Below the pieces are notes generated by a model. That model had not been told where the DNA came from, did not search any database, and saw only the letters and a program-made list of their open reading frames with translations. Made by a program: the position numbers and the translations under genes. Below are positions 2,076-20,700 of a stretch of DNA of 22,207 nucleotides, one piece after another. The stretch is from a virus. The stretch covers positions 1 through 22,207 of the IMG/VR virus record IMGVR_UViG_3300033153_012118; one strand, 5' to 3'. How positions within the stretch are numbered: position 1 is the stretch's first letter; each line of letters begins with the position of its first letter.

Positions 2076-2086
2076 AAGGGTAAAGA

Positions 2087-3019: not shown

Positions 3020-3020
3020 T

Positions 3021-3689: not shown

Positions 3690-3900
3690 AAAATGTGGAA
3701 GAGGATTAAGACATGCTCCAGCAATAATGGAATATGTTAAAAATGGACCTATGTCTGGAATGACTGGTTCGAGTTGGGTTTGTCCTGTTTGTGGAGATGC
3801 TTTTGAGGGAGACACTTTTCCTGTGCCAGGGCAAGATATGATGTGTGGTGGAAGTCCACCATACCCATATTGTGAGTGTAGCGATGGAGAAAATGAATGA
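3679..3900 (+). CDS. Small zinc-ribbon protein, TTG start
   Basis: A 73-residue protein with two Cys pairs, C3/C6 (CKKCG) and C35/C38 (CPVCG), typical of a rubredoxin-like or zinc-ribbon fold. Further cysteines follow at C56, C65 and C67. I chose the TTG at 3679 because it keeps the first CxxC pair and has the SD-like AAGGGAG about 5 bases upstream. The alternative ATG at 3727 would delete that pair. It overlaps the upstream gene by 11 bases and the reductase gene downstream by 4 (ATGA), so it may be coupled to reductase synthesis. It could be a reductase accessory or nucleic-acid-binding protein; no function can be named. Confidence 0.66.
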   Translation: MICKKCGRGLRHAPAIMEYVKNGPMSGMTGSSWVCPVCGDAFEGDTFPVPGQDMMCGGSPPYPYCECSDGENE

Positions 3901-6017
3901 ACAATAAAGATTTAACACCAAACGCTTTAGTTGCATTAAACAGAAGATATTTTATAAAAGATAAAAAAGGGAAAGTAGTAGAAGATTGGAAGAAGCTTTG
4001 CAAAAGGGTTTCGTCAGCAATAGCTCAAGATGAAAAATCAGATATAGACAGGGGACGTTGGCAACAAAAATATTACGATATTATTAACAATCTTTATTTC
4101 TTACCCAATAGTCCAACACTTATGAATGCAGGTAAAAAGAATGGACAGTTGGCTGCTTGTTTTGTTTTGGGAATAGAAGATAGCATGAAGAGTATTATGA
4201 AAGCCACTACTGATGCGGCGTTTATACATAAAAGTGGGGGTGGAACTGGTTTTGATTTTTCTAGGCTTAGGCCGTCTAAAAGTAGAGTAGCTACTACTTC
4301 TGGGACTGCTTCTGGTCCTATTTCTTTTATGAGAATGATAAACAATGTGACGGAAGAGATAAAGCAGGGAGGTACTCGTAGGGGCGCAAACATGGGAATT
4401 TTAAGATGCGACCACCCGAATATATTGGAGTTTATTGACTGTAAACAAGATACTTCTCAGATTAATAATTTTAATATTTCTGTTGCTTTAACAGACAAGT
4501 TTATGAAAGCACTTTCTTTGGGTGAAGATTACTCGTTAATTGACCCAAGAGACGGAAAAGAAATAGAAAAAATTAGTGCTAAGAAAGTATTCGAGAAAAT
4601 AGCAGAGAATGCATGGAAAACAGGGGAGCCTGGGATTATTTTTATTGACGAGATAAACAAAAAGAATCAATGGGGAGAAATAAGAGCAACTAATCCCTGT
4701 GGAGAACAACCCTTACGTGATAATGAGTCTTGTAATTTGGGCAGTATGAATCTTTCATTATATGTCAATAAAGACGGGGTTTTTGATAAAGACCTTTTTG
4801 ACGAACATATTAAAATAGCTACTAGGTTTTTAGATTCTGTAATTTCAATGAATAGTTACCCATTAGAAGAGATAAAAAAGACACACGCAGAGACAAGAAA
4901 AATTGGTCTTGGTGTTATGGGGTTTGCTGATGCTCTTATTCTTAGTGAAATAGAATATGGAAGTGTAGAGTCTTTTCAGTTTGCTAATTATGTGTATTCT
5001 TGGCTGAATGATGCAAGTAAACAAGCGAGTGAAGAACTTGGGAAAGAAAAGGGGATTTGTTTTGCTTGTGAAGAGTTAAAGCTAAAAAGAAGGAATCTTT
5101 GGACTACAACTATTGCCCCAACTGGGACAATAAGTATTATAGCTGGATGTTCTTCTGGTATTGAGCCATTATTTGCAGTAGGGTATGAAAGAAATATTTT
5201 AGACGGAGATAAGCTTTTAGAAATAAATAAACATTTTTTAAGTGAGGTTTGTGGGGGTGAAGACCTAGAAAGAGAAATATGTTCTTCTAACTCTATTCAA
5301 AACATAAAAGGTATTCCAGCAAAAATCAGAAAGAAATATGTTACTTCTCATGATGTTTCTCTAGAGAATCACATAAAAATGCAGTCAGTTTTTCAAAAGC
5401 ATTCTGACAGTGGAATATCTAAAACGATTAATCTTTCTAGTGATGCTAAAAAAGAAGATGTAATAAAAGCTTATTTATTAGCTTATAAACTGGAATGTAA
5501 GGGGATTACTGTATATAGAGATGGGTGCAGGGATAATCAACCCATGAGAGTAAAAAAAGAAGAAGTTGTTAGAAAGACTTTTAATCGTATTTCTGTAATG
5601 AAGGGTTCTACTGAAAAAATTGAAACACCTTTGGGTGGTTTATTATTGACTATTAATGAGAATGTTCATGGAGAACCTGGTGAAGTAATACTCAACATAG
5701 GAAAGTCTGGTGCTGATGTGAATGCTTTTTGTGAAGCATTGGGAAGGATTATTTCTATAGGGCTACAACATGGACTACCAGCACATAAAATAGCTAAACA
5801 ACTTAGACGAATAAAGGGTGAAGATATTATTTTCCATGACGGGAAAAAATATACATCACTACCCGACATAATTGGTAAAAGATTGGCAGAAAAAGCTAAG
5901 GAAAAGTCTAAAGATAATAATGAGAGATTGTTAGCGAAATGTCCTTCTTGTGGGGAGAGATTGTTTAATGCAGAAGGATGTTCACAATGTACGTCATGTG
6001 GGTATTCGAAATGTTAA
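3897..6017 (+). CDS. nrdJ: Adenosylcobalamin-dependent (class II) ribonucleoside reductase
   Basis: Reduces ribonucleotides to deoxyribonucleotides for phage DNA synthesis using a radical derived from coenzyme B12, so it needs no separate radical subunit but depends on host cobalamin. The 706 residues show the class II landmarks: PNSPTLMNAG (70-79), redox Cys C88 (AACF), the active-site loop NPCGEQ with C268 and E270, and the second redox Cys C279 (ESCNLGSMNLS). The spacing C268-E270-C279 matches known class II enzymes. APTGTISIIAGCSSGIEP is the phosphate-binding region. A TSCPD domain (about 565-670) and a C-terminal zinc ribbon (682-706), which normally shuttles reducing equivalents, complete it. 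It starts at an ATG with GGAG upstream and overlaps the preceding gene by ATGA. Confidence 0.95.
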   Translation: MNNKDLTPNALVALNRRYFIKDKKGKVVEDWKKLCKRVSSAIAQDEKSDIDRGRWQQKYYDIINNLYFLPNSPTLMNAGKKNGQLAACFVLGIEDSMKSIMKATTDAAFIHKSGGGTGFDFSRLRPSKSRVATTSGTASGPISFMRMINNVTEEIKQGGTRRGANMGILRCDHPNILEFIDCKQDTSQINNFNISVALTDKFMKALSLGEDYSLIDPRDGKEIEKISAKKVFEKIAENAWKTGEPGIIFIDEINKKNQWGEIRATNPCGEQPLRDNESCNLGSMNLSLYVNKDGVFDKDLFDEHIKIATRFLDSVISMNSYPLEEIKKTHAETRKIGLGVMGFADALILSEIEYGSVESFQFANYVYSWLNDASKQASEELGKEKGICFACEELKLKRRNLWTTTIAPTGTISIIAGCSSGIEPLFAVGYERNILDGDKLLEINKHFLSEVCGGEDLEREICSSNSIQNIKGIPAKIRKKYVTSHDVSLENHIKMQSVFQKHSDSGISKTINLSSDAKKEDVIKAYLLAYKLECKGITVYRDGCRDNQPMRVKKEEVVRKTFNRISVMKGSTEKIETPLGGLLLTINENVHGEPGEVILNIGKSGADVNAFCEALGRIISIGLQHGLPAHKIAKQLRRIKGEDIIFHDGKKYTSLPDIIGKRLAEKAKEKSKDNNERLLAKCPSCGERLFNAEGCSQCTSCGYSKC

Positions 6018-6027
6018 AGGAGAAAAG

Positions 6028-6126
6028 ATGGAGTCAGAGGATAAACTGTTAGTTTGGGTAATTCTTGGAATTGTAGGGATAGTGTGTGTTGGAGCCATTG
6101 TTCAGTTATTAATATGTGGATGCTAA
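6028..6126 (+). CDS. 32-residue single-pass membrane micropeptide
   Basis: A very short reading frame with an acidic N-terminus (MESEDK) followed by an uninterrupted hydrophobic stretch from about residue 7 to the end, which finishes with Cys-Gly-Cys. It has a good SD, AAAGGAG, six bases before the ATG. It fills almost exactly the gap between the reductase stop and the next gene's ribosome binding site. The length and composition fit one transmembrane helix with the charged N-terminus on one side. Function unknown; small lysis, superinfection-exclusion or host-membrane-modulating proteins are possible guesses only. Confidence 0.6.
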   Translation: MESEDKLLVWVILGIVGIVCVGAIVQLLICGC

Positions 6127-6142
6127 TAATAAAGGAGAAAAA

Positions 6143-6595
6143 GTGACAGCATTAGAAGAAGTAAACAAGAAATTATTGGATTGCCCAAAAACAGTTTTTG
6201 ATGATATTGACCTTAAAATTGACCTTAAGAAAATTGGTGGAGCATTAAGGGACGAACTAGCTCAATTAACTAATTTATATGGGAGAATTAATCAGCTTGC
6301 CAGTAATGCTATTTTGTTGAAAGAAGAAGCCGAGAAGAGATTAGAGAAAATTGAAGCTGTAGCATGGTCGTCCCTAGACCAGTCAATAAAAGTAACAGAC
6401 AAAAAGAAAATAGTAAAAGATGTTAAAGTGAAGATAGATGAAGAGATAACAACCATTAACGAGCAAGAATGCTCATTGGTCTTGTATTCTTATGTTGCAC
6501 AAAGAGGGAGAGACAAAGTAAAGGAAATATCTGCAATATTAGATGTTGGTAGAACCCTTCTTAGTTGGGACAAAGAAGAACAAAGGAGAATGTAG
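6143..6595 (+). CDS. Helical coiled-coil protein of unknown function
   Basis: The 150-residue protein is charged and almost entirely helix-forming, with heptad-like spacing in the middle (ALRDELAQLTNLYGRINQLA and later KEEAEKRLEKIEAV). No catalytic motif is seen. I chose the GTG at 6143 because AAAGGAG lies five bases upstream. An earlier in-frame GTG at 6116 lies inside the preceding micropeptide and has no SD. It sits among nucleotide-metabolism genes and is followed after one base by the cytidine deaminase gene. It could be a structural adaptor or oligomerising host-interaction factor. Confidence 0.72.
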   Translation: MTALEEVNKKLLDCPKTVFDDIDLKIDLKKIGGALRDELAQLTNLYGRINQLASNAILLKEEAEKRLEKIEAVAWSSLDQSIKVTDKKKIVKDVKVKIDEEITTINEQECSLVLYSYVAQRGRDKVKEISAILDVGRTLLSWDKEEQRRM

Positions 6596-6596
6596 A

Positions 6597-7013
6597 ATGA
6601 TTAAAGTTTATAAAGATGCACTAACTGAAGACCTGCTTGGCATGAGGGAATCAGCAATGGAAGCAAGAGAGCGGTGTCGTTTTCTTAAAAGTACTACAAA
6701 AGTAGGATGTTGCATTGAAAGTGATGCAAAGAATTGGTATAGTGGGTGTAATTTTGATTTTGAATGGGGGATTGCTGTTCATGCAGAAGAGTCAGCTATT
6801 TCTTCAATGATTAATGATGGTGATTTTAATAACGAAGAGATTGTTTGTGTGTATATTTATGCTGAAGCAGATGCACTTACTTCTTGTGGGGATTGCAGGG
6901 ATAAGCTTATGCTTTATGCGGTAAATGAGGATATTCCTGTCTATATTGACAATGGAGAGACTATTTCTGTGTTTACTTTGAAAGAATTGTTACCCTATGC
7001 ACCAAAGAGGTAA
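6597..7013 (+). CDS. cdd: Cytidine/deoxycytidine deaminase
   Basis: Deaminates cytidine or deoxycytidine to the uracil nucleoside, feeding the pyrimidine pool. The 138-residue protein has the zinc-site motif VHAEESAISS (H62 ligand, E64 catalytic proton shuttle) and the second zinc motif SCGDCRDKL (C97, C100). It ends in LLPYAPKR, which resembles the LLPxAF end of bacterial cytidine deaminases. The His-Ala-Glu form is that of the E. coli-type enzyme, although the length is that of the short tetrameric enzymes. The usual Pro before CGxC is Ser. I chose the ATG at 6597, with AAAGGAG about 8 bases upstream, over an in-frame ATG at 6543 inside the previous gene. A nucleotide (dCMP) substrate is not excluded. 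Confidence 0.84.
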   Translation: MIKVYKDALTEDLLGMRESAMEARERCRFLKSTTKVGCCIESDAKNWYSGCNFDFEWGIAVHAEESAISSMINDGDFNNEEIVCVYIYAEADALTSCGDCRDKLMLYAVNEDIPVYIDNGETISVFTLKELLPYAPKR

Positions 7014-7024
7014 GGAGGATAAAA

Positions 7025-7402
7025 ATGGAATTTGATAAACAGAAATTTCTTTTATGGGTCAAAGAAAATTCTAATTATGACGAGCTTTCAGCGAGAGCTA
7101 CTGAGGTTTTTACTGGATGGTCAGCTAGTGATGGTACGGTTCTTTTTGAAAAGATTGATAGTCTTGTTGCTCTTTTTAAAGAAGTAACTGAAATTGTTGA
7201 AAAGTTTGCTCGTACAGTCGATGACTTATCTGGCAAAGATAAGTTAGAAGTTGCAGTACAGTTTATTGATGACCTTGTAAAGTTTCCATTCTTTTTAGAG
7301 TTTGCTGATGATATTGCTATTAAGTGGGTACTTTCAACTGTTGTTTCTTTGAAAAATGAATATGTAGGAAAAGATTGGTTTAAAGATGAAGATAACAGTT
7401 AA
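7025..7402 (+). CDS. Hypothetical helical protein
   Basis: Not recognised. The 125-residue, acidic protein is predicted to be mainly helical. A moderately hydrophobic segment (about 78-112, including FIDDLVKFPFFLEFADD) could be a buried amphipathic helix pair rather than a clear membrane span. Translation is supported by an excellent SD, TAAGGAGG, ahead of the ATG. It overlaps the next small gene by 17 bases, in line with the compact operon. Confidence 0.7.
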   Translation: MEFDKQKFLLWVKENSNYDELSARATEVFTGWSASDGTVLFEKIDSLVALFKEVTEIVEKFARTVDDLSGKDKLEVAVQFIDDLVKFPFFLEFADDIAIKWVLSTVVSLKNEYVGKDWFKDEDNS

Positions 7403-7604
7403 AAATGGGCATAGTAATTTAAGAAATCTTATTGTGGTAAGTAAAGATGGACTAAGAACTTGTTGGTCTCTTGTTTCAGATATAAAAGTAGAGTCAGAAG
7501 ATTCTATAACTGTCTTTTTTAATGGAAAGGGGAACTACATTAAAGTAGACAACGTTTATTCTGTTCTATTTGAAGAGATGCAAACTAACCCTTTGGGATA
7601 TTGA
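7386..7604 (+). CDS. Hypothetical small beta-rich protein
   Basis: Not recognised. The 72-residue protein has alternating polar and hydrophobic residues suggestive of a small beta-barrel or SH3-like fold (for example ITVFFNGKGNYIKVDNVYSV). The start at 7386 lies inside the end of the previous gene and has no strong SD, so it may be translated by coupling. Its stop is one base before the ATG of the HD-domain gene. The composition matches its neighbours. Confidence 0.6.
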   Translation: MKITVKNGHSNLRNLIVVSKDGLRTCWSLVSDIKVESEDSITVFFNGKGNYIKVDNVYSVLFEEMQTNPLGY

Positions 7605-7605
7605 T

Positions 7606-8286
7606 ATGATTAATTATTTTTATGACTTTGTTAATCACATTAACAAGAACGAAAAAGTCCCATATTTTATAGAATGTAAAATAAAAGACTTACTGTGTTC
7701 GCTTACTCTAGAAGAAAGAAGTGACGTATTACATCACATTGTTTCTTCTGAGAAATCAAGTGATTGTTTTCGATATTTAGATAAAAATAAGATTCTTGGG
7801 TTTTTAGATATGGCAATTGGGGGATTAAGAAAAATTCCTCAAAATAAAGGTAAATCTAAAAATGCGTTAGACCACACATTAAGAGTTCTTGATGAAGTTC
7901 CTACTGATTTGATTGACTTAAAGTGGGTTGCTTTGTTTCACGATTTAGGGAAAGATGTTTCTCATCATTTTTATGACAACTTTAATAATCACGCTATTTT
8001 TAGCCACAATATAGCAGAAAAGTTATGTAGCTTATATAAAATTCAACGACCACATAAGATTTGTTCTATTGTCAAAAATCACATGTTTCCATTAGACTAT
8101 CAGCGTAATCCGAATTGGACAGATATTGGCGTGTATAGATTTATTAAAAGATGTGGAGAAGAATATGCATTAGACACTGTTAGATTTGCTTATTATGATA
8201 AGAAAGCAGAGAACAATGTAGTAGAGTTTTTAAAGCCAATTTTAGAACTAGAAGAAAGGATTAAAAAAATTGTCAGAAAAACTTAA
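7606..8286 (+). CDS. HD-domain phosphohydrolase-like protein
   Basis: The 226-residue protein contains an HD metal-binding domain: H90 in LDHTLRVLDEVP, H112-D113 in LFHDLGK, then H129, H134 and H159 (IVKNHMFPLD), with an Asp-rich helix near 190. The arrangement most resembles the HD domain attached to tRNA nucleotidyltransferases and poly(A)-polymerase-type enzymes, but no nucleotidyltransferase domain is present. Likely chemistry is hydrolysis of a phosphate ester or nucleotide. I chose the ATG at 7606; an in-frame TTG at 7570 lies inside the previous gene. It overlaps the next gene by 17 bases. That neighbour is a dATP/dGTP diphosphohydrolase-N-type protein, so a role in dNTP-pool shaping is plausible but inferred. 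Confidence 0.76.
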   Translation: MINYFYDFVNHINKNEKVPYFIECKIKDLLCSLTLEERSDVLHHIVSSEKSSDCFRYLDKNKILGFLDMAIGGLRKIPQNKGKSKNALDHTLRVLDEVPTDLIDLKWVALFHDLGKDVSHHFYDNFNNHAIFSHNIAEKLCSLYKIQRPHKICSIVKNHMFPLDYQRNPNWTDIGVYRFIKRCGEEYALDTVRFAYYDKKAENNVVEFLKPILELEERIKKIVRKT

Positions 8287-8677
8287 ACAGGGAGCCAAGT
8301 ATGATGATGGAAAACTTCGATATGACTTAATTCCTATAATTCCCTTGGCCCTTTTAGCACATGTTTATACTCTTGGTGCTATTAAGTATTCAGATAGAAA
8401 TTGGGAGATGGGGATAGATATAAAAAGAATTCATGCGGCTATGATGAGACATTATTTTGCATATAAAGGGGGAGAGAGACTAGACCAAGAAGATGGTCAG
8501 CATCATTTGTCTTCTATGATTTGGGGGGCAATGACCTTGATTGAATATGAATATACTCATCCTGAACTTTTTGAAAAAGACGAAGAACCTAAACCATATG
8601 CAAGTGAAGAGTTTTCAAAGTTAATGGACGAATATTTTCAAAAAACGATTGAAGCTAAAAGGAAGAAGAATGCATGA
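8270..8677 (+). CDS. dATP/dGTP diphosphohydrolase N-terminal domain (DUF5664-type) protein, TTG start
   Basis: The 135-residue protein carries the characteristic phage domain of this family: GAKYDDGKLRYDLIP (8-22), LGAIKYSDRNWEMGI (35-49), MMRHYFAYKGGERLDQEDG (58-76) and HHLSSMIWGAMTLIEYE (78-94). The paired Glu/Asp and His residues suit a metal-dependent nucleotide pyrophosphohydrolase of the all-alpha NTP type. I chose the TTG at 8270 because the family signature begins just after it, AAAGGA lies about nine bases upstream, and the next in-frame ATG would delete the domain core. It probably hydrolyses a purine dNTP; specificity cannot be read from the sequence. Confidence 0.8.
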   Translation: MSEKLKQGAKYDDGKLRYDLIPIIPLALLAHVYTLGAIKYSDRNWEMGIDIKRIHAAMMRHYFAYKGGERLDQEDGQHHLSSMIWGAMTLIEYEYTHPELFEKDEEPKPYASEEFSKLMDEYFQKTIEAKRKKNA

Positions 8678-9032
8678 AGGTTCGAATGGTAAATACTGTA
8701 AACCTAATAAGGCGCCAAAACCAAACTATTTTAAAAAGAAAAAAATTAATAATCCAAAGAATCTCAAACTCTGTGTTAAACAAGCCCCAAAGTGTCAATT
8801 TTGTAATTCTAAACGGGGTTTATCAGCCCATCACATAATTTTTCGCTCAGAGGGTAGAGATGATTCTTTAGAGAATTTAATATCTTTATGTTTTGATTGT
8901 CACAGAAAAGCACATGATGGGTATTATATAAAAGAGATATATATTACAGCAAGGAATTTCGTTATATTTGAATTAGAGCGTTTAAACGATAAAAAGTATG
9001 AACAAACAATATTGGAGCTTAGAAAAAAATGA
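8670..9032 (+). CDS. HNH endonuclease (free-standing)
   Basis: The 120-residue protein has a basic, disordered-looking N-terminus (1-40, Lys and Pro rich) followed by a complete HNH finger. Zinc Cys pair C42/C45 (CQFC) is followed by the catalytic-type His in SAHHIIFRS (H54/H55), N69 in DSLENLISLC, the second Cys pair C74/C77 and HRKAH (78-82). It would nick or cut DNA with a divalent metal. Such genes are common in phages as homing endonucleases or packaging cofactors. Here it sits between nucleotide metabolism and the clamp gene, away from the terminase. I chose the ATG at 8670 with AAAAGG upstream over a TTG at 8649. Confidence 0.85.
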   Translation: MHEGSNGKYCKPNKAPKPNYFKKKKINNPKNLKLCVKQAPKCQFCNSKRGLSAHHIIFRSEGRDDSLENLISLCFDCHRKAHDGYYIKEIYITARNFVIFELERLNDKKYEQTILELRKK

Positions 9033-10126
9033 AGATTTCAACAACAGTAAATGAAGTAAAAAAAGCACTACAAAAACTAACACCAATTATTAACTATAAT
9101 CATTCGACTTTAGCTTATAGATATTTACTCATTAGGAAAAGAGAAGACCGGATAGAGTTTAAAGCTTTTGATGATTATACAGTTGGTTCGTCTTTTGTTG
9201 CGTGTAGTAACATAGAAGGTGAAGAAGAAAATTCTTATGTTTTAGCTAAACATTTTGTAGGGCTTATTGGGAGCTTTGGCTCTAAAGATATTACTTTAGA
9301 AATCAATCAAGAGGGCTGTAAAATTAAGTCTGGGAAATCTAAATATAAGCTTTTAGTGTTAGACAAAGAAATTGCCGAAGAATCACTTAAAGAGCTTGAT
9401 ATTAATTATTATGATTTTGATGAAGATGACACAAAAATAAAAATAAGTAATTTTGCTATTAGTTATATCTCCATTCAACATTGTTTGTCAAAAGACAATA
9501 CACAAATTAATTTACAGAATGTTTTTCTTAAAGACAACAGAATGATAGCTTGTGATGGGGTCAGGGGTGCGTTTGTTGAGTTTGATACAACGAATTTGAA
9601 TGAAGTTATGTTACATAAAAAAGTATGTGATTGTATAATAAACGTTAAAGAGTCTAATGAAATCTGTTTAACAAGAGGTGATAATAGAATTTTTGGGAGA
9701 ACGGACAATTTTATTTTTGTTTCTTCTGTGGGTGATGAGTATCCATATGCACAATTAGAAGATATTATAGTTGGGTTTGATGAAAATTCGCTACCCATAC
9801 AGATTCAAGTAGACACAGAAGATATATCAGAAAAACTTAATCGTGTGTTAATGTTCGCTGATAGCGATACAAATTCTGTTTTGGTTTCTTTTGATGAGAA
9901 AAAACTAATATTGAGCGTAGAGAACACAAATAGCGCAGAAGAAGTCATTGAGGTTTTTAATAACATTAATAAAAATGATATGTCTTTATATATAGATGGT
10001 AAGATTTTAAGAGAGTTTATGAACAAATCTCTTTCTGAAGCTAAATGGCTCGCTTCTGACGAAGAGAGTGTTCAGTATGTTTATGATGGAAATTTATTAC
10101 AATTTTTCTTGGGATTAGATGGATAA
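9029..10126 (+). CDS. dnaN: DNA polymerase III beta-type sliding clamp
   Basis: The 365-residue protein matches the length and three-domain layout of bacterial beta clamps, which form a dimeric ring that tethers the replicative polymerase to DNA. The first domain is recognisable (VNEVKKALQKLTPII, then YRYLLIRKREDRIEFKAFDD and the strand-rich KSGKSKYKLLVLD). The later domains repeat the clamp pattern, for example VFLKDNRMIACDGVRGAFVEF and VLVSFDEKKLILSVEN. The usual C-terminal MPMR-like end is absent; it ends FFLGLDG. It overlaps the upstream HNH stop by 4 bases and shares one base with the sigma-like gene (TAATG). A bacterial-type clamp is less usual in phages than a T4 gp45-like one, though not unknown. 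Confidence 0.84.
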   Translation: MKISTTVNEVKKALQKLTPIINYNHSTLAYRYLLIRKREDRIEFKAFDDYTVGSSFVACSNIEGEEENSYVLAKHFVGLIGSFGSKDITLEINQEGCKIKSGKSKYKLLVLDKEIAEESLKELDINYYDFDEDDTKIKISNFAISYISIQHCLSKDNTQINLQNVFLKDNRMIACDGVRGAFVEFDTTNLNEVMLHKKVCDCIINVKESNEICLTRGDNRIFGRTDNFIFVSSVGDEYPYAQLEDIIVGFDENSLPIQIQVDTEDISEKLNRVLMFADSDTNSVLVSFDEKKLILSVENTNSAEEVIEVFNNINKNDMSLYIDGKILREFMNKSLSEAKWLASDEESVQYVYDGNLLQFFLGLDG

Positions 10127-10638
10127 TGATAATATTTAATTACAACAGGGTTTTGAAAGACTATGAACCTTTGATAATGTCTTATGCTAATAGGATTAAC
10201 AAAGACATTGAAGATATGGCACAAGAAATTAGAATCTATGTTTTTGAGAACTTGTCAAGGTTTGACCCGAACAAAGCTTCGTTAAGTTGGTATATTCCGA
10301 TGATTATTAAGACATCGTATAGGAAGCTTGTTTTTCAGAAAAAGAACCAACAGATATTTGAAGAAGAGTTTTTTGAAATCAGAGATGAAGTGGTCTGTGT
10401 AGAAGAAGAAGATAGTTATGATATAACTCTTTTTAAAATTTTAGAGAAGCTTCATAAAGTAACTGGTGTAAATAGATATTCTCTTATATCTGTTTTTTGG
10501 GCACTAGTATATAACAATGATGATAAGAATTATTCACAACTTTCAGAAAAAATGAAAGCAGAATATACTTCATTTTTAAAATATACAGACATTATTAAAA
10601 AAGTTACAAGAGAAGTAATAGAAGAGAGACAAGAATAA
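10126..10638 (+). CDS. Sigma-70 region 2-like transcription factor (candidate late sigma factor)
   Basis: The 170-residue protein has an N-terminal half that reads as sigma region 2. It runs from a helix around YEPLIMSYANRI (13-24), through DIEDMAQEIRIYVFENL (27-43, the core-RNA-polymerase-binding part), to RFDPNKASLSWYIPMII (45-61) and a basic helix (to about 73) where -10 recognition would lie. The C-terminal half is helical with no convincing region 4. The size and single clear region recall small phage late sigma factors. It starts in a TAATG overlap with the clamp gene and stands just before the terminator that separates the early operon from the virion module. Driving the repeated late promoter motif is an attractive inference, not shown. 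Confidence 0.72.
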   Translation: MIIFNYNRVLKDYEPLIMSYANRINKDIEDMAQEIRIYVFENLSRFDPNKASLSWYIPMIIKTSYRKLVFQKKNQQIFEEEFFEIRDEVVCVEEEDSYDITLFKILEKLHKVTGVNRYSLISVFWALVYNNDDKNYSQLSEKMKAEYTSFLKYTDIIKKVTREVIEERQE

Positions 10639-10648
10639 GGAGGAAATG

Positions 10649-10831
10649 ATGGAAGGTTTAAGTTTTGATAGAGATTTTAAAGTAGAGTTAGAAGACGGGA
10701 AATTTGTTATAAAAGACGGGGAAACGAATGAACTGTATTGTGTTTGTGAGAGTATTGGAGCTACTATGATGGGTATGAAGGGGTTAGAACTAGGGAAAAG
10801 AATGCAGGGAATAAAACAACTAGGGTTTTAA
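10649..10831 (+). CDS. Small protein downstream of the sigma-like gene
   Basis: Not recognised. The 60-residue protein has an acidic first half (FDRDFKVELEDGKF), then a Met/Gly-rich helix, and ends in KQLGF. It has the strongest SD of the operon, AAGGAGG. Two adjacent ATGs exist at 10646 and 10649; the second gives a better spacing of five bases. As the last gene before the terminator and third in a clamp/sigma run, it is placed like a small transcription co-factor. The hydrophobic C-terminus could be a clamp-binding peptide, but this is speculation. Confidence 0.68.
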   Translation: MEGLSFDRDFKVELEDGKFVIKDGETNELYCVCESIGATMMGMKGLELGKRMQGIKQLGF

Positions 10832-10837
10832 TAAACT

Positions 10838-10878
10838 GCAGAGGTGAACTTGTCTTTAGCGACAGGTGTATGTTCTGC
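10838..10878 (+). other. Predicted imperfect RNA hairpin after the early operon
   Basis: Outer stem GCAGA/TCTGC (10838-10842 with 10874-10878) and inner stem ACTTGTC/GACAGGT (10848-10854 with 10861-10867, one wobble) close a six-base loop TTTAGC, with wobble pairs and small internal loops between. It lies between the last early gene and the terminator and contains no gene. It may be a 3' stabilising or processing structure, or part of a short RNA ending at the terminator. Confidence 0.35.
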
Positions 10879-10884
10879 TAAATT

Positions 10885-10915
10885 GGGCTTATTTTTCGAA
10901 ATAAGCCCTTTTTTT
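10885..10915 (+). terminator. Intrinsic terminator closing the early operon
   Basis: A perfect 10-bp stem (GGGCTTATTT with AAATAAGCCC) closes a TTCG tetraloop and is followed directly by seven T residues. This is a textbook rho-independent terminator, placed after the last non-virion gene and five bases before the first late promoter motif. It insulates the virion module from upstream transcription. Confidence 0.93.
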
Positions 10916-10920
10916 GGATA

Positions 10921-10960
10921 AAATTCAAGTATATGCAAGTAAAATCCGTATTTTATAGTA
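10921..10960 (+). promoter_or_regulatory. Late promoter motif, copy 1 (terminase operon)
   Basis: Carries AAATTCAAGT (10921-10930), ten variable bases, then AAAATCCGTA (10941-10950) followed by TTTTATA. The same two blocks with the same spacing occur at 15361 and 21737. CCGTATTT in the second block, about 15 bases after the first block, loosely resembles a sigma-28-type -10 with its -35. If that reading is right, transcription starts near 10960 and the leader to the GTG at 10977 is very short, containing only AAGAAGGG as ribosome binding site. Confidence 0.75.
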
Positions 10961-10976
10961 AAAAGAAGGGTATTTT

Positions 10977-11855
10977 GTGAATGCAATAATGATGACAGAT
11001 GAAGATAGGGATAAGTGGTATCCCGTATTAGCTGACTACTATCGTCAAAAGGGAGAAGCTGAGGATAGAATACCAGATATTGTAAATACTGTTCTTGCTG
11101 AAGCTCAAGCTGGATGGAAAAGGGCTCCTCGTGATTTAGACACTAGGATTAAGATGAAAAGCGGGTATCAGTGGAAATCTCATGCTAATTTAAAACCTAA
11201 GAAAAAAGAAGAAATAGAAGAAAATATCAAATCAAACAAAGAAGAAGATATTTCATTTGAGATAACATCTTCGATGACTAAAAAAGAAAGGGATTGGTTT
11301 GAATTAAGACTTAAAGACTATGTTACTGATTTTGATTTTAATAATAGTTCTGATAAGCCTCTTCTTGAACAACTTCTTGTTGAAGAGTTGATTCAAAGAA
11401 GGCTTTTTGGTTTACAGTTGAAATATATAGATAGGGATTATAGTAAAAAAATGTCGGAAAGTCTTAAGAGGGTTAGCGATATCCAAACAAAGTTAGGTAT
11501 TACCAGAGAACAAAGAGCAGGTGCTTTAGACAATATTGATGGTAATGTTGCTCAGATTTCTGTTGACTTAAACGAGAAACTGAAGAAAATGCCAGAAAAA
11601 ATCAGACGAGAAGAAGAAGAAGAGTTATACTATTCTAATCTTAAAAAGCAAAGACCCATTGTTAATATTCTACCTGCTCCAGAAAAATTAGAAGCCATGT
11701 TAAGAATAGATGGCAAAACCACTGCAAATCTTGACAGTGAACATATTTCGATTATAACTGAACAAGTTGCAAAAGAGATAACAGAAGTTAACGAATCTAA
11801 CAAAGAAAAGCCACCACTTAAAGAACTAGCTGAAGGAATTGATGTTTCTAGATGA
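10977..11855 (+). CDS. Putative small terminase subunit (gene directly upstream of terL)
   Basis: The 292-residue, highly charged, mainly helical protein is called small terminase mainly from position, directly before the large terminase with a 4-base ATGA overlap, as first gene of the late operon. It contains a region (about 12-70) that could be a helix-turn-helix DNA-binding part, a Lys/Glu linker (about 73-92), a central helical region (about 100-200) and a long C-terminal part. It is large for a small terminase. I chose the GTG at 10977 (AAGAAGGG seven bases upstream); ATGs at 10989 and 10992 are alternatives. It could instead be another packaging accessory protein. Confidence 0.5.
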   Translation: MNAIMMTDEDRDKWYPVLADYYRQKGEAEDRIPDIVNTVLAEAQAGWKRAPRDLDTRIKMKSGYQWKSHANLKPKKKEEIEENIKSNKEEDISFEITSSMTKKERDWFELRLKDYVTDFDFNNSSDKPLLEQLLVEELIQRRLFGLQLKYIDRDYSKKMSESLKRVSDIQTKLGITREQRAGALDNIDGNVAQISVDLNEKLKKMPEKIRREEEEELYYSNLKKQRPIVNILPAPEKLEAMLRIDGKTTANLDSEHISIITEQVAKEITEVNESNKEKPPLKELAEGIDVSR

Positions 11856-13426
11856 AAAGACAACAAGCAAGATTATCAAAGAGTGATTTATTTAAACTAA
11901 ATTGCTCAGAAAAATTTATTTTATTTTGTAGGAACAATCCAGCAGAAGCCGCTAAACATCTAATGAATATTGATTTAATGTGGTTTCAAAGAATTATTCT
12001 TCGGTCTCTTTGGGACAAGAAGTATAATCTATTATTATTGGGAAGAGGAATCGGTAAAACTTGGCTTCTTGCTTTATTTGCTTGTCTTTATGCTATGCTT
12101 CATCCCAAAGTTAAAATCGGGGTTATTACTCCGTCGTTTAAGCAAACAGAATTTTTATTTGACAAAATCGCAGAATTTTTTGAAGATTCCCCTTTCTTAA
12201 GAGCGTCTACTGGGAAACTTCAGAGAACTACTTTTAGAGCTATTGTGAGATTCCATAATGGTTCTTTTATTGAGGGTCTTCCTCTTGGTACAGGAGACAA
12301 AATAAGAGGTCGTCGATATAACCTTATATTAATTGATGAATATGCATTTGTTGATGAGGATATTATTAAAAAAGTAGTTAACCCAATGATGAATGTGAAA
12401 ATTCCTGGTATTGAAAATAAACAAGTTATTTCTTCTACTGCATATTATCCATGGAATCATTATTATTTACAATATTTATTTTACAATATTATGTCTGAGA
12501 ATAAGCCAGAGCTTTATGGTTTGCATGAGTATATAAAAGAAGACGTAGACTCAGTTCCAAATGCTCCGTTTTTGTTAGATGAAGATGTATACGAAATGAT
12601 GAAAAGCACAACAACAGCAGAGATATATAATATGGAGAACAAATGCCAATTTCCTATTGAAAATGTGGGATTCTTTTCTGCTAGATTAATTGATGCTTGT
12701 ACCCCAAGAGAAAAAGAGGGTCAAGATTCTTGTCCGATAGAAGTAGAGGGTATTAGTAACAGTAGTTATTCTATGGGTATTGATGCCGCTAGAGTAGCGG
12801 GGGGAGACAATTTTTCGATTAGTATTGAGAAACTAGAGGCTGGAGTAAAGAAATTTGTTCATGGATTTACGCTTAACGGTGCTCCGTATCAAGAAATGAT
12901 ATATCATATAAGAAGATTGACGCAAGAATTTAATATTATTCAGATTAATATGGATGCGGGTGGTGGTGGTACGACTCTTAAAGACCTGCTTATGCAACCC
13001 TACAAGACAATTGAGGGGACAGTTCTTCCAGCAATATTAGATATGGATGATAAAGATATGGAATATAGAGAGGGTCAGCATATTTTAAGAATGATTAATT
13101 TTACAAGAACAGTTGTTAATGATTTGTATATGAGGTTAAAAGCCGATATGCAACATCGAACGCTTCAGTTTCCTCTTGATATTAGAAGACATTCAGATAG
13201 AGAGTTAGAAAAAATAGCTAAAGAAATAATAGAAACTAAACGAGAACTTTTAGTATTGCAAGCAGAAGGAAAAGGGAATTACTATACTTTTGATGTGCCA
13301 AGTCAATTTAAAAAAGATAGAGCTACATCACTAGCATTAGCTACTCAGGCGGCTAATGATTTCTTGTCTATGTACAAAGAAGAAAGTGTTCCTGAGCTTG
13401 CTACTGGATTTTGGATGGACAGATGA
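11852..13426 (+). CDS. terL: Terminase large subunit (packaging ATPase/nuclease)
   Basis: The DNA-packaging motor: it docks on the portal, hydrolyses ATP to pump DNA into the prohead, and cuts the genome. The 524 residues show the ATPase domain with Walker A GRGIGKT (64-70) and Walker B LILIDEYAF with D162-E163. The RNase H-like nuclease domain has D311 (MGIDAAR), D368 (NMDAGGGG) and D489 (KKDRATSLALA) as the metal-binding acid set. All key residues are present, so it should be active. Motifs and length resemble the T4 gp17/Terminase_6 class. It overlaps its upstream neighbour and the portal gene by 4 bases each. Confidence 0.96.
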   Translation: MKRQQARLSKSDLFKLNCSEKFILFCRNNPAEAAKHLMNIDLMWFQRIILRSLWDKKYNLLLLGRGIGKTWLLALFACLYAMLHPKVKIGVITPSFKQTEFLFDKIAEFFEDSPFLRASTGKLQRTTFRAIVRFHNGSFIEGLPLGTGDKIRGRRYNLILIDEYAFVDEDIIKKVVNPMMNVKIPGIENKQVISSTAYYPWNHYYLQYLFYNIMSENKPELYGLHEYIKEDVDSVPNAPFLLDEDVYEMMKSTTTAEIYNMENKCQFPIENVGFFSARLIDACTPREKEGQDSCPIEVEGISNSSYSMGIDAARVAGGDNFSISIEKLEAGVKKFVHGFTLNGAPYQEMIYHIRRLTQEFNIIQINMDAGGGGTTLKDLLMQPYKTIEGTVLPAILDMDDKDMEYREGQHILRMINFTRTVVNDLYMRLKADMQHRTLQFPLDIRRHSDRELEKIAKEIIETKRELLVLQAEGKGNYYTFDVPSQFKKDRATSLALATQAANDFLSMYKEESVPELATGFWMDR

Positions 13427-14967
13427 AAGAAATAAAAGTTGACGAAGCTACTATAGTAGCTGACCAAGATTTTGAAGCAGAAAAAAGAGAAGAACTTGCT
13501 ATTGGATTAAAAATTCCAACTTCTATGAAAACACCAGTTGGGTATTTAGATGGATTAAATAAATTCAAAGATATCTATAATGATATTTATCAACAAATGG
13601 AAGTCAGTTCTAAGCTTTATAAGTTTAATAGTATTGTCGGAAATGCTGTTGATGTTTTAATTGATTTTGCTGTAACACCCCTTAGAGTTCAACCAACGGG
13701 AAATAAGCAATTTGATAAAGTATTAAAGCATTTTTTAGACAATGTGAACAATTCTAATACAAGTACTTTGCCTGGTATATATCCCCTTTGCCAAGAAGTA
13801 GCGTTAGAATGGTTCACTTCTGGGAATGTTTTTCCTTATACTAAGTGGGAAAATGTTAAAGTTGGAAATACGACATATAAGCTTCCAATGTCTATTAATT
13901 TAATTAATCCACAATCTATTGATATACCAAGTGGTCCTATAGCTTTTGGTCAAGAAATAATATATTTAAAATATGATAGTGAATTGATGACCCAGTTGAC
14001 ACAAGATGGGAGAAGCAATCCTGAAGCCGCATTAATTAAAGCGGCTATACCACGAAGTATTCTCAATAGTTTAAAAAAGAATCCAGGTTCTTCTCAGGGA
14101 GCACGACTTAACCCAAAATATGTTACTCATTTGAAAAGAAGGTCTAAAAGCTATCAACCTTGGGGAACTCCGTATCTGTCAAGATGTTTTGATTCTGTTA
14201 CTCTTCTTGAAAGGATAAGACAACTTGATAATTCTATTGCGGCAGGGTTAATTAATTTAATTACTGTTTTTAAGATAGGGACTGAAGAACATCCAGCTTC
14301 CCCACATAGACTTAAGAAATTTGCCGCACTTTTACGAAATCCCAAAGCTACTCAGACTTTAGTTTGGGCGCATGATGTTGACCTTATTCAAGTTGGTCCA
14401 GATGGTAAAGTTTTAGCTTGGAAAGATAAGTACAAAGACGCAAAAGAAGATGTTTTAATTGCATTGGGTATTCCCCCAGTTTTAACTTCACTTAATCAAT
14501 CAGGAGATGAATGGGTTTCTATTCTTTCTCTTATTGAAAGACTATCTCATTGGAGAAAAACTGTGTCTATTTGGCTTGAAAAAGTTTGTGAAGATATAGG
14601 AAGACACAATGAGTTTAAGCAAGAAGTAAAAATAAAATGGGAAAGAATGAATCTTGCTGATGAACAGTCTATAAAGAACTTAGTCTTATCTTTTTATGAC
14701 AGGGGTTTAATTTCTATTAAGACTGCTCTTAGGGAATCTAATTATGATATAGAGCAAGAACATAACGCTAAGAAAGAAGAGAAAGAAATTCAAGAAGATT
14801 TTCTACCTCCCAATCTTCCTTTTAGTGGGAGTAACACAGAAGTAGACAAATCAAGACCAAAAGAAGATAGCACAAAAGAAAAAACAAAAAAAGACACGAA
14901 ATCTGAAAATACAGTTGATTTAAAAGAACAAAAGAAGAAAAAAACACCCAAACCTACTAAGAAATAA
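13423..14967 (+). CDS. Portal protein
   Basis: Forms the dodecameric ring at the unique capsid vertex through which DNA enters and leaves and on which TerL docks. The 514-residue protein follows terL and has portal-like sequence in its middle: YLDGLNKFKDIYNDIYQQM, FTSGNVFPYTKW, INPQSIDIPSG, the SYQPWGTPYLSRCFDSVTLL crown/stem segment and ALGIPPVLTSLNQSGDEW. The C-terminal 60 residues are Lys/Glu/Ser rich and look disordered. I chose the ATG at 13423, which overlaps the terL stop (ATGA), over an in-frame TTG at 13411. The assignment rests on context plus general portal features. Confidence 0.88.
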   Translation: MKEIKVDEATIVADQDFEAEKREELAIGLKIPTSMKTPVGYLDGLNKFKDIYNDIYQQMEVSSKLYKFNSIVGNAVDVLIDFAVTPLRVQPTGNKQFDKVLKHFLDNVNNSNTSTLPGIYPLCQEVALEWFTSGNVFPYTKWENVKVGNTTYKLPMSINLINPQSIDIPSGPIAFGQEIIYLKYDSELMTQLTQDGRSNPEAALIKAAIPRSILNSLKKNPGSSQGARLNPKYVTHLKRRSKSYQPWGTPYLSRCFDSVTLLERIRQLDNSIAAGLINLITVFKIGTEEHPASPHRLKKFAALLRNPKATQTLVWAHDVDLIQVGPDGKVLAWKDKYKDAKEDVLIALGIPPVLTSLNQSGDEWVSILSLIERLSHWRKTVSIWLEKVCEDIGRHNEFKQEVKIKWERMNLADEQSIKNLVLSFYDRGLISIKTALRESNYDIEQEHNAKKEEKEIQEDFLPPNLPFSGSNTEVDKSRPKEDSTKEKTKKDTKSENTVDLKEQKKKKTPKPTKK

Positions 14968-14978
14968 AGGGGATAAAA

Positions 14979-15332
14979 ATGCCGACAGACATCTTGACTC
15001 AACCAAATACTTCAATTCTTGTTATTATTTTAGTTGTTTTAGTTCTAAGAGAGATTATTCCACTTTTTAAGAAATCAAAATTAGAAGAGATACAAGAGCA
15101 ACATAATTTAGAAACAGAGAAAATTAACAGTAAAGCTAATTTGTTGCTTAGAGATGTAGGGGCATTATACGACATGCACAATGTTAAAGACCAAGATGGA
15201 ACTTATATTTGGTATGTTAGAAGCTCTTTAGAGGAAGCCATTTCTAAATTAACAGAGTCTATAATTACTCAAAATATAATTTTCAGAGAATTAGTGACAA
15301 GATTAGAGATAAAGGGCGAAAAAGATAAATAA
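14979..15332 (+). CDS. Single-pass membrane protein with cytoplasmic helical domain
   Basis: The 117-residue protein has a hydrophobic segment at about 13-30 (SILVIILVVLVLREIIPLF) with positive residues just after it. A charged coiled-coil region follows (31-55), then a domain containing ALYDMHNVKDQDGTYIWYV (62-80). An N-out/C-in anchor is expected. It follows the portal gene, with AAAGGGGAT as SD, and is the last gene before the second late promoter. It could be a holin-like or membrane-tethering protein, but the position next to head genes gives no firm clue. Confidence 0.65.
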   Translation: MPTDILTQPNTSILVIILVVLVLREIIPLFKKSKLEEIQEQHNLETEKINSKANLLLRDVGALYDMHNVKDQDGTYIWYVRSSLEEAISKLTESIITQNIIFRELVTRLEIKGEKDK

Positions 15333-15360
15333 TCTGTTCACTGATAGTGGTTTAAAAAGT

Positions 15361-15400
15361 AAATTCAAGTATATGCGATTAAAATCCGTATATTATTATA
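15361..15400 (+). promoter_or_regulatory. Late promoter motif, copy 2 (head operon)
   Basis: AAATTCAAGT (15361-15370), ten bases, AAAATCCGTA (15381-15390), then TATTATTATA. The first 31 bases differ from copy 1 at only two positions, although the surrounding sequence is unrelated. It lies in a 96-base gap between the membrane protein and the first head gene. The SD TAGGAGAA and ATG (15429) follow about 30 bases downstream. No terminator is seen before it, so it probably boosts head-gene transcription on top of read-through. Confidence 0.75.
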
Positions 15401-15428
15401 TATCAAAGATATATGTAGGAGAATCCTT

Positions 15429-15812
15429 ATGAACAAAAGATTAGAGAGCTTTATTCCAAATAGTAAGACCGACCCTACTCTTGCTCCTGTATCACTAGAT
15501 ACCACTGCTACAACAGTTACCTATTATGACGATATGGTGGTAACTAACGAACATGCTCAAGATGGGTTGCTATATGTAGAAACCTTGGGATATAATACTG
15601 CTACTGCTGGATTTACCCCGAAAGTTTATAGCTCTTTTAATGGGTATCAATGGTTTCTGAACACATCTTTGCCTGTTACTGATACAGGTGGGTCGATAGC
15701 ATATCCATTAGATAATTTGGGTAAATATATAAAATTTGGCTATACAGCAGAAGTTAAAAGAAATATTTCTAAAGTTAGGGTGATGTTAGAACTAAATGAA
15801 ACTTACGACTAG
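15429..15812 (+). CDS. Small beta-rich probable virion protein
   Basis: Not recognised by name. The 127-residue protein is rich in Thr, Val and Tyr with strand-like alternation (TTVTYYDDMVVTNEHAQ; VRVMLELNETY at the end), suggesting a beta-sandwich such as a head decoration or fibre domain. It is the first gene behind the second late promoter, with the SD TAGGAG, and directly precedes the protease/scaffold gene. This argues for an abundant structural or assembly role. No catalytic motif is visible. Confidence 0.65.
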   Translation: MNKRLESFIPNSKTDPTLAPVSLDTTATTVTYYDDMVVTNEHAQDGLLYVETLGYNTATAGFTPKVYSSFNGYQWFLNTSLPVTDTGGSIAYPLDNLGKYIKFGYTAEVKRNISKVRVMLELNETYD

Positions 15813-15821
15813 GGAACAGAT

Positions 15822-17678
15822 ATGAAAAAAGACCTAACTGCTAATGCTGGAGACACTTATCATAATAGGTATTCTTCAGATTCCCCCTATAAGGGTAATA
15901 AAAAATATAAAAAGAAACCTCAAAAGTGTTCTAAGTGTGGTACGACAAAGGGTCCTTTTGACCTTCATCATACTAACAATAGTAGAAAAGACTTAAAATC
16001 TGGAAAAGGTATTTCAGTTATGTGCAGAAGTTGCCACAGAAAATACCACGCTAAACTAAACGGGGGTAAGGGGTCTGAAGAAATTATTTCTGCTGTAGCA
16101 AGAATAATTGATGACCCAAAAACAAATGAATCAAAAGCTATTGCTAGTGACCATAAAAATTCTGATTTAATGCATGTAGAATTTATTTTATGTCATGCTA
16201 CTGTAAATGATAATAAAGATAGATTTACGTCAGACGACTTAAAAGAATCTGCTCACACAGCGACTAATAAACCTATTAATTGGGAACATAAAGACCAAAA
16301 TATAGGCGTTATTTATGAGAGTAAATTTGTTTCTACAGATAAATTAGAAGACGAAGCTAAAGCATATTATGAAAATATTGACCCATTAGAGTATGATTTT
16401 GTTGTTTGTCGTGCTTGTGTATGGGAATATAAATATCCAATGGAATCTCGTATCATGAGAGATAGAGCTTCTAATGGTAATTTATTCTTTTCAATGGAAA
16501 ACAACTTTGATAAAGCTACTTGTTCTGAATGTAATGAAACCTTTGATAGTTTCTATGAATATTGTGACCATTTATTGTCGAGAAGGCAGACCGACAATGT
16601 ATCCAGAATATTTGGGGATAGCAATTTTGTAGGAGCGGCTGTTACAAGAAATCCAGCTGATGAACTAGCGGGAACACTTGCTCTTGCTTCTTTGAGAAAA
16701 AATCATAGTGTTTTTGCTGATGTTTGTCAATCGACAGCTTTATCGAGTGTTTCTATAAAGAATGAAATAATCCCTTATATTATTTCTAGAGAGGCTGATA
16801 TGAAAATTAGGGAATTAGATATCCCCGAAGAACTTAGAAGCGGTCTTGAAAAAGATTTATCTAATGAGCTTTTTGCGGATGATGTTAATAAAGTTTTCCC
16901 ATTAGATAACGCTGAGAATGTTTCGGTTGCAGCCGAATCGTTCCTTAACAGTGAGCTTAATTTTTATGAATCATCGGAAAAACTTTATATTGTTGAAAGG
17001 ATTGCTAAAGCAGCCAATGAATATGATATTGAAATAAATACATTGATTAAAGATATAGAAGGAGGTACTGAATCAATGACTATTGACAAAAATTCTCCTG
17101 AATTTAAACAGGCATTAGCCGAGGCACTAGATGTCGAGCTAAAAGGTATTGAGTCAGGAACTAAACTTGCTGAATCTCAAGAAGAGTTAGCTAAGGCTAA
17201 TGAAATTACTGATAAAACTAAAAAAGAATTAGACGAGTCTAATAAAGCTAAAGCTGATATTCAGACTGAATATGAGGCTTACAAAACAGAAGTTGAAAAG
17301 AAAGAACTTGCTGAAGCTCGCTATTCTACTTTGGTTGAAAAAGAACTCGAATTTGAAAATTCTGATTCCGTTAAGAGTCGTATTGCTGAAATGGATGAAG
17401 ATGCTTTTGCCGCTTATGTTGCTGACTTAGAAACTGTTGCCGCTAAAGCTAAATTCAATTTCGAGAAGAAGAAGAAAGACGAAGAAGAAGACGAAGAAGA
17501 AGACGACGACAAAAAGAAGAAAAAAGACAAAAAGAAAGACGAAGCTAAGGCCAATAAAGAAGACCCCGTTAAAGAGTCTAATGAAACCGCAATAGCTTCT
17601 AAAGTTGATGACGGCACTTCTGACCAGAAATCAAAGTTTCCTGGTTTTGATGCAGTCTTAAATGCGCTTGATAATTAG
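15822..17678 (+). CDS. HNH finger / prohead protease / scaffold fusion protein
   Basis: The 618-residue protein lies between portal and capsid genes, the usual place for maturation protease and scaffold. Residues 1-80 hold an HNH-like zinc finger (C36, C39, H49-H50, C68, C71, H72, H76). Residues about 115-290 resemble a head-maturation serine protease: MHVEFILCHATVNDN, then H156 in NWEHKDQNIGVI and S224 in LFFSMEN, spaced like the His/Ser pair of U35-type proteases. A zinc-knuckle-like patch follows (C234, C237, C248, H250). From about 420 to the end lies a charged coiled-coil scaffold with a Lys/Glu/Asp block (549-574) and a hydrophobic C-terminal helix. An internal ribosome binding site probably makes the scaffold separately. 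The protease assignment is partly contextual. Confidence 0.78.
   Translation: MKKDLTANAGDTYHNRYSSDSPYKGNKKYKKKPQKCSKCGTTKGPFDLHHTNNSRKDLKSGKGISVMCRSCHRKYHAKLNGGKGSEEIISAVARIIDDPKTNESKAIASDHKNSDLMHVEFILCHATVNDNKDRFTSDDLKESAHTATNKPINWEHKDQNIGVIYESKFVSTDKLEDEAKAYYENIDPLEYDFVVCRACVWEYKYPMESRIMRDRASNGNLFFSMENNFDKATCSECNETFDSFYEYCDHLLSRRQTDNVSRIFGDSNFVGAAVTRNPADELAGTLALASLRKNHSVFADVCQSTALSSVSIKNEIIPYIISREADMKIRELDIPEELRSGLEKDLSNELFADDVNKVFPLDNAENVSVAAESFLNSELNFYESSEKLYIVERIAKAANEYDIEINTLIKDIEGGTESMTIDKNSPEFKQALAEALDVELKGIESGTKLAESQEELAKANEITDKTKKELDESNKAKADIQTEYEAYKTEVEKKELAEARYSTLVEKELEFENSDSVKSRIAEMDEDAFAAYVADLETVAAKAKFNFEKKKKDEEEDEEEDDDKKKKKDKKKDEAKANKEDPVKESNETAIASKVDDGTSDQKSKFPGFDAVLNALDN
17059..17066 (+). 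promoter_or_regulatory. Internal Shine-Dalgarno site inside the protease gene
   Basis: AAGGAGGT, an eight-base match to the anti-SD, lies inside the coding sequence nine bases before an in-frame ATG (17076). It is as strong as the sites used by real starts in this window, for example those at 7025, 10649 and 18349. Confidence 0.7.
17076..17678 (+). CDS. Nested scaffold protein from an internal start
   Basis: An in-frame ATG at codon 419 of the fusion gene begins MTIDKNSPEFKQALAEALD and would give a 200-residue protein made only of the scaffold part: a long charged coiled coil, the Lys/Glu/Asp-rich block and the C-terminal helix (KFPGFDAVLNALDN). The upstream AAGGAGGT at nine-base spacing makes independent translation likely. 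Lambda does this with the protease gene C and the nested scaffold Nu3. Scaffold is needed in large excess over protease, which a nested start would supply. The start is inferred from sequence alone. Confidence 0.66.
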   Translation: MTIDKNSPEFKQALAEALDVELKGIESGTKLAESQEELAKANEITDKTKKELDESNKAKADIQTEYEAYKTEVEKKELAEARYSTLVEKELEFENSDSVKSRIAEMDEDAFAAYVADLETVAAKAKFNFEKKKKDEEEDEEEDDDKKKKKDKKKDEAKANKEDPVKESNETAIASKVDDGTSDQKSKFPGFDAVLNALDN

Positions 17679-17690
17679 GAGGAATATCCA

Positions 17691-20472: not shown

Positions 20473-20499
20473 TTTTATAAAGATAGTTAGGAGAAAGCA

Positions 20500-20700
20500 A
20501 TGTCTTTGAAGATGAATGGGAAAGTAACACATGATGCTTTTGATGGGAAAGTCAATTTTAGTTTTTTGAAAGAACAATCTAAAAAAACTAAAGATTTAGA
20601 TACAGTGTCATATGATTATAATACAAATTTAGCATTTGAGATATATAAGAAATTTAAGAACTCAGATGTAGAGATTGTTGTGACAAAAAAGAAGGAATAG
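20500..20700 (+). CDS. Small hypothetical protein
   Basis: A 66-residue Lys-rich protein with no recognised motif, mixed helix and strand (GKVNFSFLKEQSKKTKDLD, then EIYKKFKNSDVEIVVTKKK). It has the good SD TAGGAG and sits between two putative virion genes, its stop one base before the next ATG. Position suggests a small virion or assembly factor. Confidence 0.62.
   Translation: MSLKMNGKVTHDAFDGKVNFSFLKEQSKKTKDLDTVSYDYNTNLAFEIYKKFKNSDVEIVVTKKKE

Follow-up and report, generated by a model that had tools for sequence, protein, structure and literature searches.

The window, by which we mean the whole 22-kb stretch of phage DNA analysed here (IMG/VR record IMGVR_UViG_3300033153_012118, probably a genome fragment), carries on its plus strand a compact series of genes that leads from the end of a middle operon into the late genes. 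An HNH endonuclease-type gene (8649-9032; Pfam HNH, 1.7e-11) is followed by the gene of a 365-residue sliding clamp (9029-10126) and by that of a 170-residue phage sigma factor (10126-10638). The HNH stop and the clamp start overlap by 4 nt (ATGA), the clamp stop and the sigma start by 1 nt (the TAATG at 10126 which a preliminary description of this DNA had pointed out), and overlaps of this size suggest translational coupling. Behind the sigma gene come a 61-codon ORF (10646-10831) and the intrinsic terminator of the middle operon (10885-10908), whose perfect 10-bp stem and following run of seven T bear out its earlier recognition. The first of two very likely late promoters (10921-10956) lies just beyond. 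The late operon is opened by a terS-like ORF (10977-11855), which is so named from its position and orthology only and has no Pfam or PHROG family match; the terminase large subunit gene, TerL (11852-13426; phrog_2, 2.3e-30), and the portal gene (starting at 13411) come next.

Direct searches of viral contigs and phage records with the sigma and clamp proteins returned nothing except weak clamp matches in Thermus phages, and alignments of both proteins against bacterial genomes gave no matches. Relatives were reached through searches with TerL and the major capsid protein: two large genomes, G001 (103 kb; L003) and G002 (111 kb; L035), and the fragments L014 and L002. TerL is 62-66% identical in G001 and L002, and a terS-like orthologue stands directly 5' of it in G001, G002 and L014. 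The window's order of RNR, HD, dATP/dGTP diphosphohydrolase, HNH, clamp, sigma, terS, TerL and portal genes is kept in G001, and RNR, HNH, clamp, sigma, terS, TerL and portal follow one another in G002. In both the HNH gene is directly 5' of the clamp gene, which overlaps the sigma gene by 4 nt in G001 and by 1 nt in G002. At the place of the window's terminator, G001 has a hairpin and a T-run.

Two features of the virion genes may be recorded here. A large head-module protein has an HNH-like zinc motif (CSKCGTTKGPFDLHH...CRSCHRKYHAK) at its N-terminus in all five phages (window 15822-17678; L003 12453-14252; L014 4585-6393; L002 3485-5362; L035 7421-9259). A virion-module protein of the window (21219-22001) contains a 14-residue tandem repeat (SSSKISLSYVSG-like) with a 42-nt period and seven copies in register.

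The clamp, the sigma factor and the small reading frame

The clamp had been called bacterial in type, and this assignment holds. The protein matches phrog_947 (DNA polymerase processivity factor) over its full length at 2e-27 and the N domain of the Pfam beta clamp (DNA_pol3_beta) at 5e-5, and a two-row profile of the clamps retrieves solved beta clamps from 8e-7. Its length is 365 residues in the window, G001 and G002, with 44% and 36% identity to the window protein in the two relatives. A segment ACDG[VI]RGA is kept in all three orthologues and aligns with DGYRVA of a solved beta clamp, which we take to correspond to DGHRLA in Escherichia coli and to form part of the peptide pocket. The predicted structure of the window clamp (pLDDT 38) was unusable, and it is from the sequence matches that the protein is assigned to the three-domain bacterial beta type, whose subunits have about 370 residues and a peptide-binding pocket. 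Since genes for a DnaE polymerase, a clamp loader and a DnaG primase are all present in G001, a clamp of this kind presumably has an ordinary job in replication. These replication genes are on the opposite strand and far from the clamp gene, in contrast to Thermus phage Lalka8, where the clamp gene is near the replication genes. At the place where a clamp-binding motif would be expected in the phage polymerases, as judged by eye, G002 has TKSLF and G001 SRSLI.

The sigma factor matches Pfam Sigma70_r2 (1e-6) and phrog_1740 (4.6e-8). The preliminary description had recognised its region 2, which is indeed present, but the protein is not limited to that region. The orthologues align with phrog_1740 from sigma2 through sigma4 (residues 6-157 in G001 and 10-157 in G002), and in the window protein sigma2 would occupy approximately residues 1-80 and sigma4 residues 93-170. 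An AlphaFold model of modest confidence (pLDDT 60) agrees with this division: its residues 1-76 superimpose on Mycobacterium tuberculosis SigH (Z 8.2, 74 residues, 3.1 A) and residues 94-170 on region 4 of E. coli sigmaE (Z 7.2, 68 residues, 3.1 A), Z values that are middling for helical folds, so that these alignments were used only alongside the sequence matches. Taken together, family matches and model identify a phage sigma factor of 167-170 residues in the three phages that has sigma2 and sigma4 and lacks sigma1.1 and sigma3, which is the ECF architecture.

The sigma orthologues of G001 and G002 are 42% and 27% identical to the window protein, and the C-termini of the three are unrelated to one another. 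A conserved clamp-binding peptide was sought across these three sequences and not found, nor was there a conserved equivalent of the TKSLF/SRSLI-type motif of the polymerases. What is invariant in all three is KxQxxFE in the linker between sigma2 and sigma4 (residues 73-79; region 10198-10365 of the window), which may be a contact site or an ordinary feature of the linker.

The 61-codon ORF yields 61 residues from its first ATG, or 60 from the ATG at 10649, which lies 5 nt past AGGAGG (10638-10643); the small reading frame with a strong Shine-Dalgarno sequence that had been described is thus really there. It had also been taken for the third member of a cassette with the clamp and sigma genes, with its KQLGF end as a candidate clamp-binding peptide, and in both respects the proposal fails. 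Pfam, PHROG and further homology searches reveal no detectable homologue, and the short gap between the sigma and terS-like genes holds no counterpart in either G001 or G002. Compared with the QLxLF clamp motif of bacteria the peptide is a residue too short, and we rejected it for this poor fit and for the lack of conservation. As G001 and G002 keep the HNH, clamp and sigma genes with no such ORF in the gap, these three genes are, on comparison of the genomes, the conserved cassette, and the 61-residue ORF does not belong to it. The preliminary description had named relatives as the place to check its gene order: the clamp-sigma pair is not unique to the window and is kept in G001 and G002, but its supposed third gene is absent there.

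These observations bear on the explanation from which the study of the locus began, a three-protein complex like that of T4 in which the 61-residue protein would be a gp33-like co-activator held on the clamp by KQLGF. The position of the ORF immediately after the sigma gene, its Shine-Dalgarno sequence and its end ahead of the terminator are what such a complex would lead one to expect. With no homologue, no such gene in the gap of the two relatives, a QLGF peptide lacking one residue of QLxLF and a sigma factor provided with its own sigma4 domain, we nevertheless consider it very improbable. A gp33-like co-activator that binds the flap is not needed where the sigma factor itself carries sigma4. 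The 61-residue ORF is specific to the window and probably plays no part in the clamp-sigma system.

Probable late promoters and a proposed middle-to-late switch

The repeated promoter-like motif noticed earlier also stands: 36 nt in two copies (10921-10956 and 15361-15396) that are 92% identical, a repetition found in none of 100 shuffles. Each copy contains the -10-like core CCGTAT, at 10946-10951 and 15386-15391. For comparison between phages we took the 100 nt preceding two genes, the terS-like one in three phages and the one that opens the next head operon in five. Seven of these eight homologous regions contain CCGT[AC]T, at 26-43 nt ahead of the start codon, against a mean of 0.12 and never more than two regions in 2000 Markov shuffles; this contrast is somewhat generous, since some of the same regions had served to derive the pattern. 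The hexamer most widely shared is CCGTAT itself (six of eight). Before the terS-like gene, G001 has CCGTAT and G002 CCGTCT; the core of the second promoter has counterparts in the equivalent position of G001, L014 and L002, and the corresponding region of G002 is the lone exception. A further CCGTAT-type copy precedes a late gene of G001 (position 51740 of the reverse complement). Among the aligned columns, only those of CCGTAT and of the A/G-rich ribosome-binding side downstream have a high information content. No -35 element is conserved between the phages, and the upstream half of the motif is shared by the window's own two copies. The exact window pattern was not met in the viral contigs.

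It is very likely, to judge from this conservation, that the repeated motif is a late promoter whose core reads CCGT[AC]T. ECF promoters typically have CGTA or CGTC in the core of their -10 element, and CCGTAT thus fits the ECF architecture of the sigma factor; a GAAC-like -35, the other half of an ECF promoter, was not found in conserved form. Near-consensus TTGACA promoters of G001 lie mostly in the left arm and on the opposite strand, as expected of host-type early promoters. At about 600-17800 of the G001 reverse complement there are many minus-strand ORFs of about 100 residues with near-consensus TTGACA-N17-TATATT promoters; they are probably early genes.

We consider it probable that the region is a switch from middle to late transcription. 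Early genes would be driven by host-type promoters, and the middle operon would end with the HNH, clamp and sigma genes (and, in the window, the 61-residue ORF) at the terminator. The small sigma2-sigma4 factor, co-translated with the beta-type clamp that the phage encodes, would bind the host RNA polymerase and direct it to late promoters with the -10 core CCGTAT; we infer both that this sigma reads these promoters and that the core polymerase is the host's. As the first such promoter lies just past the terminator and 5' of terS and TerL, the packaging and virion genes would be switched on, while the clamp would serve the phage replisome. The pairing of the two genes would at least tie their timing, and late transcription would start as replication proceeds. 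The sigma2-sigma4 layout, the overlapping pair standing directly 5' of the late genes in each of the three divergent phages, the terminator between the sigma gene and the promoter, the conserved CCGT[AC]T core with its ECF-like -10 sequence, the mostly left-arm, opposite-strand position of the host-type promoters of G001 and the replisome genes of that phage argue for the switch to late transcription by this sigma, which we regard as likely. Against it are the absence of a conserved -35 despite the sigma4 domain, the lack of a match to the second promoter in G002 and the pLDDT of 60 for the sigma model.

Clamp-sigma linkage and its meaning

Such a switch is compatible with more than one relation between clamp and sigma, and our confidence in it therefore overlaps with our confidence in the two explanations that follow. 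One is that the genes are neighbours simply through the gene order of the lineage and that their products act independently. We give this an even chance: gene order in the relatives largely agrees with that of the window, from RNR to portal in G001 and for the most part in G002, which makes conserved synteny a fair alternative to coupling. The other is a physical coupling analogous to that of T4 but separately evolved, in which the clamp loaded on DNA would tether the sigma-RNA polymerase complex, late promoters would fire on replicating DNA and sigma4 would take the place of gp33. The overlapping genes in three divergent phages, the remoteness of the G001 clamp gene from the replication genes (among which the Thermus phage clamp lies), the conserved pocket segment of the clamp and promoters that show a -10 core only are in keeping with it. 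The differing C-termini of the sigma factors, with no conserved clamp-binding peptide, speak against it, adjacency may be plain synteny, and the QxxFE of the linker may be an ordinary ECF feature.

More distant relatives bear on this choice. TerL also leads to the Bacillus Slashviruses and to phage MaeS. In Stahl the order is gp22, two small genes and the sigma gene gp25, with terS and TerL downstream; gp25 matches phrog_1740 at 1.6e-61, and gp22 (234 residues) belongs to phrog_15095 with weak matches to phrog_6615 (1.9e-8) and phrog_947 (3e-5). Orthologues of gp22 and gp25, 30% and 38% identical, follow this order in MaeS, whose sigma factor matches phrog_1740 (1.8e-19) and Pfam sigma4 (1.3e-9) and which has a distinct clamp elsewhere in the genome (phrog_6615, 1.5e-24). 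The family matches of the MaeS gp22 orthologue do not themselves identify a clamp, which weakens the argument for coupling. Profiles from our alignments, which are very small, gave no information when compared with the Slashvirus proteins, and the link to the window consequently rests on shared PHROG families. The genome paper of Stahl (PMC4541283) lists two sigma factors, together with a small number of replication proteins that do not include a clamp. Read in this way, the cultured Bacillus phages and MaeS would have a weaker version of the clamp-sigma arrangement.

That a clamp-like gene stays close to a sigma gene of the same family in the Slashviruses and MaeS, where most neighbours are different, is not what plain synteny predicts, and the separate additional clamp of MaeS likewise favours coupling. 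The recurring linkage is suggestive as a sign of coupling, which we still hold to be rather unlikely. A fuller proposal, and an unlikely one, would be that late transcription is coupled to replication by an independent route: a beta clamp, loaded by the phage clamp loader, would activate a sigma2-sigma4 factor at -10-only promoters with no gp33-like factor, and the sigma-linked clamp-like protein of MaeS would be a relative dedicated to transcription beside a replication clamp. The recurrence, loose as it is, in culturable Bacillus phages adds a tractable ground on which the link between replication and late transcription can be tested.

Some observations on MaeS stand apart from this argument. 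The CCGTAT core was considered as a late promoter of the Slashviruses and MaeS and rejected, there being no CCGTAT promoters in them. Several MaeS (L004) genes are preceded by intergenic GTTATA...GTTATA pairs (e.g. 9527-9605, 20482-20555, 27466-27630), perhaps this phage's own promoter type. The 570-nt gap before its terS (13488-14058), read by eye, seems to contain an unannotated tRNA-like sequence. MaeS (MT362618.1) is labelled a Microcystis phage, a host label that looks doubtful given its SleB-type lytic enzyme and the Bacillus Slashviruses as its closest relatives in this analysis.

Comparison with known systems

The clamp resembles the bacterial DnaN in length, in its three domains and in the DGHRLA-type pocket segment, and differs in being phage-encoded and very divergent and in the overlap of its gene with a sigma gene. 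The sigma factor shares with ECF sigmas (sigmaE, SigH, SigW) the layout of sigma2, linker and sigma4 and a CGTA-like -10 core; unlike them it is phage-encoded and very divergent, with no anti-sigma factor seen and no conserved -35. The Slashviruses (Stahl, Slash, Staley, Stills) likewise have a phrog_1740 sigma gene 3' of a clamp-like gene and 5' of terS and TerL, although their clamp-like gp22 is short, two genes intervene and CCGTAT promoters are absent.

In phages phiEco32 and 7-11 a small phage sigma factor directs the structural genes from a few well conserved phage-specific promoters, and early genes have host-type promoters (PMC4331800). The CCGT[AC]T regions described above are also few-copy promoters placed before structural genes and probably served by a phage sigma; they differ in sequence, and the window's sigma gene overlaps a clamp gene, whereas a clamp is unmentioned in that paper. 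In a brief search of the literature we met no description of a phage sigma gene paired with that of a beta clamp, which is no proof that none exists.

A subunit of T4 gp45 has about 230 residues, and the 365-residue beta-type subunit of the window does not correspond to a homotrimer of subunits of that size. In T4 late transcription gp45 is a homotrimeric clamp, gp55 combines sigma2 with a conserved C-terminal clamp epitope, and gp33 occupies the site on the beta flap that sigma4 would otherwise cover and itself contacts the clamp (PMC2988020, PMC7892883). The window resembles this system in having a phage factor of the sigma family, a phage clamp and late promoters of which only a -10-like core is conserved. 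It differs in its three-domain clamp and its promoter core. Its sigma factor is not a sigma2 protein devoid of sigma4, and the unrelated C-termini of the orthologues show no evident hydrophobic-acidic clamp epitope like that of gp55. The 61-residue ORF is not the conserved small partner with a C-terminal clamp epitope that gp33 represents. With sigma4 present, KQLGF unfit and the third gene not conserved, the analogy fails for the sigma factor on the features tested, and the window system does not belong with that of T4. A conserved clamp-sigma pair outside the T4 family, in uncultured phages, offers a direct way of asking whether the coupling of late transcription to replication has evolved more than once.
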